Source: Bacteroidales bacterium (GTDB lineage: Bacteria; Bacteroidota; Bacteroidia; Bacteroidales; UBA932). From it: DNA of 36,197 nucleotides. Location: assembly GCA_012511975.1 (NCBI GenBank), contig JAAZEZ010000061.1:1-36197 (forward strand). Direction: 5' to 3'. Below are positions 600 through 10,798 of this stretch, in pieces; position 1 is the stretch's first letter, and every line of letters begins with the position of its first letter. The notes beneath the pieces were generated by a model. That model ran no database searches and was not told where the DNA came from. It saw only the letters and a program-made list of their open reading frames with translations. Position numbers and translations under genes: made by a program.

Positions 600-2588
600 A
601 TGAAAATACCACTATATGACATAATAGTAATAGGTGCAGGGCATGCAGGATGTGAAGCTGCAGTGGCAGCAGCACGAATGGGCTCTAAAGTTTTGCTCAT
701 AACAATGGATTTGAACAAAACTGCCCAGATGTCTTGTAATCCCGCCATAGGCGGAATTGCAAAAGGACAGATCGTATGTGAAATTGACGCTCTCGGCGGA
801 TACTCTGCAATTGTTACCGATGCTTCAACAATACAATTTAGAATGCTAAACCTTTCTAAAGGTCCGGCTATGTGGAGTCCCCGCGCTCAATGCGATAAAC
901 TCCATTTTTCCATAAACTGGCGCTACATCCTTGAAAATACCTCTAATCTAGACCTTTGGCATGATATGGTGACCTCTTTAACCTTCCGAGAATCCAATAT
1001 TTGTGGTGTTCACGTCTCTATGGGTGCAAAATTTCATTGTAAAAGTGTTATTTTAACCGCAGGTACATTTCTTAACGGCAGGCTTTATATCGGCAATGAG
1101 ATGGTTGATGGTGGAAGGATGGGTGAGTCACCTTCACTGGGTCTTACCGAGCAACTCTCCCGATTGGGATGTACTACGGCAAGAATGAAGACAGGTACTC
1201 CACCAAGAATTGATGCAAGGTCTTTGGATCTCTCTAAAGTGGTTATGCAGGAATTAGATCCCAACCCTTCTAAGTTTTCATATCTTCCTTTTAAGACAAG
1301 TATCCAAAGAGGCAAACCGCAGAAGCCTTGTTACATTGTACATACAAATGAGAATGTTCACGACATTCTCAGGACTGGTTTTGATGAGTCTCCGCTATTT
1401 CAGGGAAAGATCACAGGCATAGGACCTCGTTATTGTCCTTCTATTGAAGATAAACTACGTACTTTTGCCGGTAAGGATTCACATCAATTGTTTCTAGAGC
1501 CGGAAGGATGGAATACTCATGAATATTATTTGCAAGGATTTGCTTCATCACTTCCCTTACGGGTACAGATGGATGCTTTACAAGAGATTGAGGGACTTCG
1601 CGGAGTCAAGATATTTACACCTGCATATGCTGTAGAGTATGACTTTTTCGATCCTACTGAACTAAAGCCTACGCTTGAGTCCAGAATCTTACCAAACCTT
1701 TATTTTGCCGGACAAGTAAATGGCACAACCGGTTACGAGGAGGCAGCAGCCCAAGGATTAATCGCTGGTATCAACGCTCATCTCAAACTTAACGGAAAGG
1801 AGCCTTTTATTCTGAAACGAGATGAGGCATATATAGGTGTTCTGATAGATGATCTAATAACTAAAGGAGTCGATGAACCTTACAGGATGTTCACTTCTCG
1901 TGCTGAGTATCGTATTCTTTTACGACAAGACAATGCCGATAGTCGACTTACGGAGATGGGGTACGAGCTTGGTCTCGTAGACCAATTCAGGTATGAATAT
2001 ACCAAACTTAAACATGATACCATCTCTGCTTACATAGATTTATCTAACAGTACTTCTTTGAGGCCGGAAGACATCAATGATTATCTTAGGGCTATTAATA
2101 GTGCTGAAATCACCACAAGGAAGAAGATCTCAAACCTTTTGTCTCGTCCAGATACTTCAATAAAGCCCCTTCTTAAAAATGTTCCACGTGGAACATTTCT
2201 TGAGACAGGTCTTACTGAAGGATTAGAAGCCTTATCATCAATAGAAACTGAGCAAATCCAAAACCTATTAGATTTGCCTTGGGGTAAAACGGCCGGCAAA
2301 GAGGAAATAGATTCCAAATATGTGCATGAAGAGATACTCCAGTCAGCAGAAATTAGTATTAAATATAAAGGCTATATTGAACGCGAAAAAGCTATTGCTG
2401 ATAAATTAAGACGTTTGGAAAATCTCAGAATTCCAGATGATTTTGACTTTTCAAAAGTCACTTCTCTTTCAATGGAGTGTCGAATTAAACTCAATAGGTA
2501 TCGCCCACGCACAATCGCTCAAGCTGCACGTATCTCAGGAGTTTCTCCTGCAGATATACAGGTTCTCTTGATTTATTTTGGTAGATAA
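600..2588 (+). CDS. mnmG: tRNA uridine-5-carboxymethylaminomethyl(34) synthesis enzyme MnmG (GidA)
   Basis: N-terminal FAD motif [35 protein letters not shown]-terminal [20 protein letters not shown]. Confidence 0.98.
2177..2198. promoter_or_regulatory. parS-like ParB/Spo0J binding site, intragenic in mnmG (AAATGTTCCACGTGGAACATTT, perfect 22-bp palindrome)
   Basis: Contains TGTTCCACGTGGAACA, matching the known parS form (TGTTYCACGTGRAACA). Confidence 0.85.
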
Positions 2589-2812: not shown

Positions 2813-2850
2813 AAAAAAACCGCAAACGTTCCACGTGGAACATTTGCGGT
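2813..2850 (-). terminator. Rho-independent terminator of the acyl-CoA synthetase/GNAT operon, overlapping the parS-like site
   Basis: On the minus strand: ACCGCAAATGTTCCACGTGGAACGTTTGCGGT followed by a T run, 18 nt after the GNAT stop codon. Confidence 0.75.
2819..2850. promoter_or_regulatory. parS-like site in intergenic region (core GTTCCACGTGGAAC at 2828-2841)
   Basis: Same 14-bp core as the mnmG site; extended palindrome ACCGCAAAcGTTCCACGTGGAACaTTTGCGGT with one mismatched pair. Confidence 0.85.
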
Positions 2851-2868: not shown

Positions 2869-3543
2869 TCAAAGAGGAAACGAAAATGTAGAGTGCGTGG
2901 ATTCTATTGAGAAGTTATCATTGAGTGATGTTAGCAATAAATAGGGATAGCGGGTGTCGTACTGAAATGGGGAACGAGGGTTAAAAGTAGCTTCCTCAAT
3001 AATGTAGTCAAGTAAATAATGATTCCACTGAAAATAGTCCGACATCAATCTTTCATCTCTTGTTAAAAATAAATTTGCCCCATCAAAATGAGAAATGAAT
3101 GCTCTGTTTTCAAATAATGGTAGTGAGTCGGCATTTCTGTAAATCGGAGTATTAAATCCGATTTTTTCGTAAAATGAGACAATATTAGCATTCGAAGGAT
3201 GCACCATCATAAATTTCCAGCCCTGCCTTTTAGCATTGTTTCTAATGTAGGCAATAAGTGATTTGGCATAACCGCGGTTACGGTATGCGGGCAATGTAGC
3301 AAGGCCGCAAATATATACACCTGCGTGAGAGTCCCTATGTCCTCTGGTGCGTGAGCTGGAGATGTATGATATACTCATAGTTTGCACCACCGAGACAGCT
3401 TTACCGTCCCGTTCGTAAACAAGAGTGTGTCTAGGGGTGCATTTTTTTAGGAAGAAATCGATATATTTTTCGCTCGTATCAAAGCATTTCCTGTAGATCT
3501 TGCGTATATCCGATATGTCCTGTTTTGTGGCTGAGCGAATCAT
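2869..3543 (-). CDS. GNAT family N-acetyltransferase
   Basis: LATLPAYRNRGYAKSLIAYIRNNAKRQGW acetyl-CoA binding motif and FYEKIGF. Start chosen at MIRSATKQDI rather than the ORF-track start at 3720, which overlaps the upstream gene. Confidence 0.85.
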   Translation of the reverse strand: MIRSATKQDISDIRKIYRKCFDTSEKYIDFFLKKCTPRHTLVYERDGKAVSVVQTMSISYISSSRTRGHRDSHAGVYICGLATLPAYRNRGYAKSLIAYIRNNAKRQGWKFMMVHPSNANIVSFYEKIGFNTPIYRNADSLPLFENRAFISHFDGANLFLTRDERLMSDYFQWNHYLLDYIIEEATFNPRSPFQYDTRYPYLLLTSLNDNFSIESTHSTFSFPL

Positions 3544-3568: not shown

Positions 3569-5359
3569 CTAATTATCCTCTGGTTTTTCGGTTTTGAATA
3601 TATCGTTGATAAGATTTGCGTATTTTTTATGGATGTTACGGCGTTTAAGCTTGAGAGTTTGAGATAGCATGTCGTTGTCGGTGCTCCAATCATCAAGCAC
3701 AATCTTTCCGCGCTTAACAACTTCGTGGATTGCCAGAGTCTTGTTTACCTTCTCCACCTCATCATGGATAAGCTTGCTAATCTCCTCAGAAGCAATGAGT
3801 TCCTGATCGGTCTTATATTGGATTTTACGCCTTTGAGCAAACTCTTTAATCTTTGGTAATGAGGGGATTATGATTGCAGAGGCGAATTTCTGGTTTTCCC
3901 CGATTACTATACAGTTCTCTATGTAAGGTGACTCCTTTAGGCGTGTTTCTATTACCTGAGGAGCTACATATTTGCCCGATGATAGTTTGAAGATTTCCTT
4001 CTTGCGGTCAGTGACTTTAAGATACTGTCCATCAACAAGATATCCGATATCTCCCGTATGCAGCCATCCCTCAGAATCTATTATCTCGGCCGTAGATTCG
4101 GGATCCTTGTAATAGCCGAGCATAACATGAGGTCCTCTGGTTAAGATTTCGCCGTCTTCAGCGAATGAAAGTTCCGTACCTCCAAGCGCTTTTCCTACGG
4201 TACCAATGACATTTATGCCGTCAGCGGGGCTGTTTACTGCAATCACAGGGGAGGTTTCGGTCATGCCGTAACCTTCATAGATATGGAGTTTAGCTGCGTT
4301 AAAAGTACGCACAATCTTGGCTTGAATGGAGGAGCCGCCAGATACCACAATCATCTCCTTGCCTCCAAGGGCAGCTCTCCACTTGCTATAAACAAGTTTA
4401 TCATAGAAGTTACGTTTTGCGAGGTAGCGCTTACTTTTGTTGTAATTATCAAAGTTGTTGGCAAAGTTCCATGCAAGTTTGTAGATGATTCTTTTAATGC
4501 CTTTAAGCTTCTTGCCTGCAGCCTCAAACTTACTGTACATTATCTCCAGCACGCGCGGAACAGCACAGAATCCATCTGCTTGGCTATCTGCGAGGTCTGT
4601 GGCAACAGTACTGAGAGACTCTGCGTAATAGATACTGATAGCAAGTTCTTGATACTCATAGTTCATAGTGCGCTCGTATACGTGACAGAGCGGAAGAAAG
4701 CTTAACATTTTATGGTTCCAATTCCACACCTGACGCAATGCATGACCATGGGCATTTGATGTAAGGTTGCGATGAGAGAGCATAACACCTTTCGGCAAGC
4801 CTGTAGTACCGGAAGTATAGACAATACTACAGCACTCATCGGGTGATATTTCTGCTTTGTTGCGCTCTACAATGGGTGCAAATTGCTCTTTATGTTCACG
4901 TCCCAGTGCCTCCAGTTTAGAAATACAGAAAATTTCATCCGAGTCATCCATCATCATCACTTTGAATTCGCGATCGATTTCATCTATGATCGGAGTCACT
5001 TTCTTATATAGATTTTTATTACCTACGATGATGATTTTTGCGTCCGAATGATCGAAAATGTGTTTGAAATCTCTTTTACTTAGTGTGCTGTAAACAGGTA
5101 CGTGGATCATATGAGCGAGGTTGGCGCCCATATCCACGAAATTCCACTCGGGGCGATTGCTGCAAAGGGTTATTATCTTGGTGCCGGCTTTAAAGCCTAG
5201 TGCCAAAAGACCGTATGCAACGTTGTGCGAGTGTTCTATATAATCATCAATACTGTACTTTATCCACTGGCCTTGAACTTTGCGTGCCAGTATATCATCT
5301 TTTGGGGGGAAAGAGGCTTTCAGATTTGAAAGCAAGTCAAATGTGCGGGTTATAGTCAT
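3569..5359 (-). CDS. Long-chain fatty-acid--CoA ligase (AMP-binding)
   Basis: AMP-binding motif YTSGTTGLPKGVMLSHRN, YGMTETSP, GWLHTGDIGYL, DRKKEIFKLSSGKYVAP. Confidence 0.95.
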   Translation of the reverse strand: MTITRTFDLLSNLKASFPPKDDILARKVQGQWIKYSIDDYIEHSHNVAYGLLALGFKAGTKIITLCSNRPEWNFVDMGANLAHMIHVPVYSTLSKRDFKHIFDHSDAKIIIVGNKNLYKKVTPIIDEIDREFKVMMMDDSDEIFCISKLEALGREHKEQFAPIVERNKAEISPDECCSIVYTSGTTGLPKGVMLSHRNLTSNAHGHALRQVWNWNHKMLSFLPLCHVYERTMNYEYQELAISIYYAESLSTVATDLADSQADGFCAVPRVLEIMYSKFEAAGKKLKGIKRIIYKLAWNFANNFDNYNKSKRYLAKRNFYDKLVYSKWRAALGGKEMIVVSGGSSIQAKIVRTFNAAKLHIYEGYGMTETSPVIAVNSPADGINVIGTVGKALGGTELSFAEDGEILTRGPHVMLGYYKDPESTAEIIDSEGWLHTGDIGYLVDGQYLKVTDRKKEIFKLSSGKYVAPQVIETRLKESPYIENCIVIGENQKFASAIIIPSLPKIKEFAQRRKIQYKTDQELIASEEISKLIHDEVEKVNKTLAIHEVVKRGKIVLDDWSTDNDMLSQTLKLKRRNIHKKYANLINDIFKTEKPEDN

Positions 5360-5410: not shown

Positions 5411-5449
5411 AAAACAAAAAACAAGGGAGGCCCTCGCCCGGGCCTCCCT
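5411..5449 (-). terminator. Rho-independent terminator of gcvH
   Basis: AGGGAGGCCC-N6-GGGCCTCCCT hairpin; on the minus strand followed by TTGTTTTTTG. Confidence 0.85.
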
Positions 5450-5474
5450 CAACACATCACATTTGATTTACAAA

Positions 5475-5849
5475 TCAGATTATTTCTTCATACTGCTTAG
5501 CAGAAAGAAGAGTATCAATTTCCGAAGCGACGGAATACTTGATCTTAATCATCCATCCCGCACCATATGGGTCGCTGTTAACAAGCTCCGGAGCATCTTC
5601 AAGCTCAGGATTGAACTCTGTGACCTCTCCTGAAAGAGGCATAAGCAAGTCTGCAACTGTTTTTACAGCTTCAACTGCGCCGAATATTTCATCCTTCTCC
5701 ACAAATTCACCCTCAGTTTGAATATCGACGAAAACAATATCACCAAGCTCGCTCTGTGCGAAATCGGTGATGCCTACAATAGCGATGTCACCCTCAATTC
5801 TTACCCATTCGTGATCTTTAGTGTACTTAAGTTCTGCAGGAATGTTCAT
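5475..5849 (-). CDS. gcvH: Glycine cleavage system H protein
   Basis: [34 protein letters not shown] and lipoyl-lysine motif [15 protein letters not shown]. Confidence 0.97.
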
Positions 5850-10649: not shown

Positions 10650-10670
10650 AAGAGATGGGCATAAAAGAAA

Positions 10671-10707
10671 AACAGCGCTAGAGTGATCTCTGGCGCTGTT
10701 TTTTTAT
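10671..10707 (+). terminator. Rho-independent (probably bidirectional) terminator between glyS and tRNA-Ser
   Basis: AACAGCGCTAGAG-TGAT-CTCTGGCGCTGTT followed by a T run; A-rich upstream flank would serve the minus strand. Confidence 0.85.
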
Positions 10708-10711
10708 TGTG

Positions 10712-10798
10712 CGGTGAGAGGGGGATTCGAACCCCCGATACGGTTGCCCGTACGTCAGTTTAGCAAACTGATGGTTTCAGCCACTCACCCACCTCACC
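10712..10798 (-). tRNA. tRNA-Ser (anticodon GCU)
   Basis: Minus strand GGTGAGG...TCAGT-TTGCTAA-ACTGA...long variable arm...GGGGG-TTCGAAT-CCCCC-TCTCACC-G; G73 discriminator; CCA not encoded. Confidence 0.95.

Follow-up and report, generated by a model that had tools for sequence, protein, structure and literature searches.

The locus and its palindrome

The window, i.e., the whole 36,197-nt stretch of DNA analyzed here, carries on its plus strand mnmG (gidA; 600..2588; Pfam PF01134, E = 3.8e-151), convergent with a minus-strand gene for a GNAT-family acetyltransferase (2869..3543; Pfam PF13527/PF00583) that has orthologues in five close relatives and whose transcript is putatively ended by the hairpin described below. 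Upstream of the GNAT gene lies an AMP-binding gene of the acyl-CoA ligase type (3569..5359, minus strand; Pfam PF00501, E = 4.2e-60) and, to judge from their spacing, these two genes probably form one operon. Two further structures were seen in the window: a strong GC-rich terminator-like hairpin with TTTTTTGTTT at 5422-5451 (minus strand), after the gene at 5475-5849 (minus strand) and before the acyl-CoA ligase gene, and a 25-nt inverted repeat (84%) at 10659-10712, touching the 3′ end of tRNA-Ser (10711-10798, minus strand).

Between the convergent genes, at 2828-2841, is found the sequence GTTCCACGTGGAAC, palindromic around CACGTG and assigned to neither strand, that matches the parS core consensus in 14 of 14 positions and the perfect parS 16-mer in 15 of 16. 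This 14-bp core is identical to that of P. aeruginosa parS1-4 and of M. xanthus parS; the one outer mismatch is of the same kind as in P. aeruginosa parS1/parS4 (PMC4368675) and, read on the minus strand, the 16-mer TGTTCCACGTGGAACG equals the M. xanthus parS consensus, for which gel shift demonstrates binding of ParB (PMC3899335). What distinguishes the window site from the parS of these two organisms is its placement in the stem of a predicted intrinsic terminator, the location of its partner within mnmG and the finding of just two sites. As the preliminary description had stated, the core is centered in a 32-nt inverted repeat (2819-2850; complementarity at 17/18 positions per arm) with a single mismatched pair, C2827/A2842, which becomes a G·U wobble in the minus-strand RNA.

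The assembly (1,378,048 bases, 89 contigs) holds two exact copies of the 14-bp core, at 2828-2841 and 2181-2194, 647 bp apart, and none elsewhere, in a draft of 1.38 Mb that is 77% complete, so that further parS copies may exist. Because ~0.005 copies of a 14-mer are expected by chance in 1.38 Mb, as against two exact ones so close to each other, a chance origin of the core is excluded. On another contig of the same genome ParB (E = 4.4e-54) adjoins ParA, and the CTPase and HTH region of this ParB aligns with parS-binding Spo0J/ParB structures. The exact consensus, the conserved pair of parS at mnmG and the presence of ParAB make the assignment of 2828-2841 as a chromosomal parS site well supported.

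The second exact parS (2181..2194, likewise without strand), not mentioned in the preliminary description, lies in frame within mnmG, where GTT CCA CGT GGA AC is read as VPRGT. Among the mnmG loci from 34 genomes of the genus, the window's own included (L033-L067), a parS-like site is present toward the 3′ end of the mnmG coding sequence in all 35 sequences covering that part of the gene, being exact in 27 and having one mismatch in six and two mismatches in two. The protein around the site varies in length and sequence across the genus; in L046 the site is in a different reading frame (MFHVEH, not VPRGT), while in L059 (GTTCTACGTAGAAC) and L067 (GTTTCACGTGAAAC) both palindrome halves are altered together, the peptide being altered as well. 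This putative internal parS is conserved throughout the genus as DNA and not as peptide.

As a rule the genus has another parS past the end of mnmG, in most cases +2 to +21 from the stop codon and normally without a terminator. A similar distribution is found in a Bacteroidales sample (loci L004-L010, L068-L096 and L216-L241), in which 61 of the 66 sites having the mnmG 3′ end on the locus, a number that includes paired, and hence not fully independent, sites of single loci, fall 0–600 nt past the mnmG stop, 53 of them within 0–100 nt. From these positions the window site is therefore read most simply as the standard post-mnmG parS shifted to +240. In one of the sampled loci (L091, ~1501) the parS just 3′ of mnmG is part of a very long palindrome whose perfect arms each continue for 18 bp past the core.

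The hairpin on the minus strand

In the minus-strand RNA the repeat (2819..2850) can form the hairpin ACCGCAAATGTTCC-ACGT-GGAACGTTTGCGGT, with 14 pairs (the mismatch becoming U·G), a 4-nt loop and a stability of −22.2 kcal/mol for the hairpin alone; the stretch 2806-2870 folds at z = −7.45 with respect to its shuffles, none of 200 being as stable. The stem is directly followed by seven T (TTTTTTT, 2819-2813 on the minus strand) and is separated by 18 nt from the GNAT stop codon (TGA, 2871-2869, minus strand), a disposition correctly noticed in the preliminary description. Taken with the pair-preserving changes found in relatives, hairpin and T tract (2813..2819) are probably the intrinsic terminator of the GNAT transcript, so that the same DNA is, as had been suggested, both a candidate parS and a candidate terminator. 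The 14-bp stem, the 4-nt loop, the T7 and the distance of 18 nt from the stop codon are those of an ordinary Rho-independent terminator, whereas the identity of the stem is constrained by a protein-binding palindrome, its upper part and the ACGT loop being set by the parS core where a GC-rich stem closed by a stable tetraloop would be usual. In a search of Rfam no non-tRNA family was matched at the site.

The plus strand lacks a comparable T tract (its tail is TATCTGTT) and its stem contains a C·A mismatch, which is not what is expected of a bidirectional terminator or insulator. This geometry leads to the rejection of the model in which termination would shield parS from read-through from either side: since a polymerase arriving from the GNAT gene reaches the T tract only after parS, the latter is transcribed before release and the terminator cannot keep GNAT transcription off it, nor does the plus strand offer a T tract against transcription from the mnmG side.

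Hairpin and core among close relatives

Comparison of MnmG places the nearest relatives in the order G013, G061/G019, G016 and G062, the GNAT neighbor being common to all. The core of the window site has no mismatch in G000 or in G062, which branches more deeply, one in G013 and three in G016, and is absent from G061/G019. In G062 the exact parS, at +29, is accompanied by a minus-strand T8, and 522 nt, much of them repetitive, lie between parS and GNAT; the degenerate short repeats (like CAATAACTCAGCAACTCGATAG) that fill ~500 nt of this interval (locus L037) are apparently an insertion in that species. G013 has a 16–17-bp hairpin 16–17 nt past the GNAT stop, with the core GTTCCACGAGGAAC / TGTTCCACGAGGAACA and CACGAG in the loop. 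A similar sequence, parS7 of P. aeruginosa, is still bound by ParB, though more weakly (PMC4368675), and the G013 core TGTTCCACGAGGAACA may thus, as a ParB site, be weakened and not lost. G016 retains the arms CTGCAAA/TTTGCAG around its mismatched core, and in G061 and G019 the intergenic region is reduced to 29 nt with neither parS nor hairpin, the mnmG-internal parS being retained.

Where the palindrome is mismatched in G000 and G013, G·U wobbles result solely when it is read on the minus strand, whereas in G016 the wobbles arise on the plus strand. The G016 mismatches thus favor a plus-strand hairpin, the minus-strand one being weak (−9.4 kcal/mol), a circumstance that counts against the minus-strand terminator proposed below. 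When the four hairpins are aligned as RNA, 91% of the pair cells are paired, as compared to 34–46% when the sequences are slid, and two pairs display double changes; this covariation rests on four sequences, with 14 to 110 of 500 shuffles reaching the observed measures, and the alignment is supportive, but not conclusive, of a homologous hairpin.

These comparisons bear on the possibility that the site is a parS only, its long DNA palindrome providing an extended ParB contact or a cruciform and no terminator. Such sites do seem to exist, some Bacteroidales parS having long perfect arms and no clear terminator tail (e.g., L091, with its 18 bp beyond the core), but the presence of T7 adjoining the stem at just one of its ends and at the correct spacing past the stop codon, the G·U wobbles on the transcribed strand of G000 and G013 and the homologous hairpin with T tract in relatives make this explanation very improbable.

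Most members of the genus have the core without the arms, and within the genus the predicted fusion of parS with the GNAT terminator is confined to the small clade of the window. Core and arms are not kept as a unit: G013 and G016 retain the arms as the core decays, and G061/G019 have lost both. In the window clade, then, two relatives retain the predicted hairpin with a weakened parS core. It could be argued from this persistence, with one and three core mismatches in G013 and G016, respectively, that the element is nowadays a terminator only, the core being a relic kept as stem and ParB loading mainly at the mnmG-internal site; that G061/G019 do without the site yet keep the internal parS, and that the outermost base pair is C/A and not T/A, would fit this explanation. 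On the other hand, both G000 and G062, the latter branching more deeply, carry an exact core, the 16-mer TGTTCCACGTGGAACG is the one bound by M. xanthus ParB (PMC3899335), and it is sequence, not history, that determines recognition by ParB, so that the relic explanation has a small chance of being correct.

Candidate parS-terminators in other bacteria and a probable dual use of one palindrome

When GTDB genomes were scanned for parS cores preceded at 4–16 nt by A5, at least 144 site-sides were obtained, both orientations of bidirectional sites being counted. Among the matches listed, 24 of 144 have the entire gap perfectly base-paired, as compared to 2.9 expected when the right flanks are swapped (maximum 8 in 500 swaps), and the corresponding T5 control gave, again among the matches listed, 4 perfect stems out of 42 vs. 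1.45 expected. Flank swapping rules out that, among the matches listed, the terminator-like parS sites (24/144 vs. 2.9) are of chance origin.

Several of these elements lie in recognizable contexts. In the Rikenellaceae (L144 and L139) a parS-terminator with T tracts both ways is found between convergent mnmG and gltX; in another Bacteroidales (L160) it lies between convergent ruvA and mnmG, in L125 just 3′ of mnmG (both ways) and in Chitinophaga (L103) between ybeY and mnmG (both ways). In Shewanella (L151, L117 and L104) the element is located by an amidohydrolase gene and, in L151 and L117, by tag as well, a gene that in P. aeruginosa also adjoins parS3/parS4 (PMC5521831). The elements of L139/L144 and L151 share with that of the window the same exact core, lengthened into a stem with a T tract and placed between convergent genes, and the Rikenellaceae ones share also the adjacency to mnmG; they differ in having bidirectional T tracts, shorter added arms (5–7 bp) and other neighbors (gltX; tag/amidohydrolase), and the Rikenellaceae and Shewanella cases look like fusions independent of that of the window.

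The generalization that parS sites are terminators is, however, to be rejected. In an unbiased sample of 85 Bacteroidales sites no excess of terminator-like ones was detected (4 vs. 4 in the control, with an extension of at least 5 pairs and at least 6 T out of 8), and in 348 Bacteroidota genomes A5 beside parS (24 genomes) does not clearly exceed the T5 control (16 genomes); in this smaller set there are four perfect stems vs. 0.66 expected, the maximum of the null being also four. Candidate parS-terminator fusions are recurrent in bacteria but rare. A search of the literature on parS and terminators found no description of such an overlap, which is not proof of its absence.

Two functional interpretations of the overlap can be envisaged. 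The first is that ParB, once bound to parS, affects how transcription of the GNAT operon is terminated, or that the terminator protects ParB loading, as the coupling postulated in the preliminary description would imply. The physical overlap of the two elements, the repression by P. aeruginosa ParB, at its native level, of promoters adjacent to intergenic parS3/parS4 (PMC5521831) and the independent parS-terminators that Rikenellaceae, another Bacteroidales and Shewanella have between convergent genes speak for such a link; against it are the position of parS upstream of the T tract, where it would be transcribed before release, the free separation of core and arms among relatives and the control counts in both the 348 genomes and the Bacteroidales sample, all of which make coupling at the window site unlikely. 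The second interpretation is that of a recurrent composite element, located where genes converge near mnmG in Bacteroidota or near tag in Shewanella, in which selection would keep parS and terminator together for a mutual benefit of ParB loading and transcription ends, a loading site at a transcription dead end meeting, for instance, fewer polymerases; this too is given little likelihood.

Instead, the best reading is that a single palindrome is opportunistically put to two uses that do not depend on each other, and we consider it likely that the window site is one of the two parS of the mnmG 3′ end whose palindrome became, in the window clade, the upper stem of the acyl-CoA ligase/GNAT terminator. 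The two uses are taken to be independent because G013 keeps the stem with a changed loop, G016 keeps the arms with three core mismatches and the core lacks arms in most members of the genus. As double-stranded DNA, parS would load ParB-CTP clamps; as minus-strand RNA, the same sequence would fold into the hairpin, with release of the transcribing enzyme in the T tract (2813-2818), between parS and mnmG. RNA polymerase arriving from the GNAT gene would cross parS before the hairpin forms and would meet any ParB clamps loaded there. Antisense transcription would be kept by the terminator out of the mnmG 3′ end and of the internal parS. As to the order of events, the conserved parS, lying between gene ends, would have come first and the flanking pairs and T tract would have evolved around it; since parS is a ready-made 5-bp/4-nt hairpin, a few outer pairs and a T tract suffice for a terminator.

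The mnmG 3′ end appears to be the standard place of parS in Bacteroidales, a fact that may aid the location of centromeres in uncultured genomes. Furthermore, a single palindrome would be readable both as DNA, in the form of a ParB loading site, and as RNA, in the form of a terminator stem, and fusions of this kind seem to have arisen repeatedly; parS-terminators may therefore offer a natural test of the effect of ParB clamps on termination by RNA polymerase, a poorly studied point of contact between segregation and transcription.
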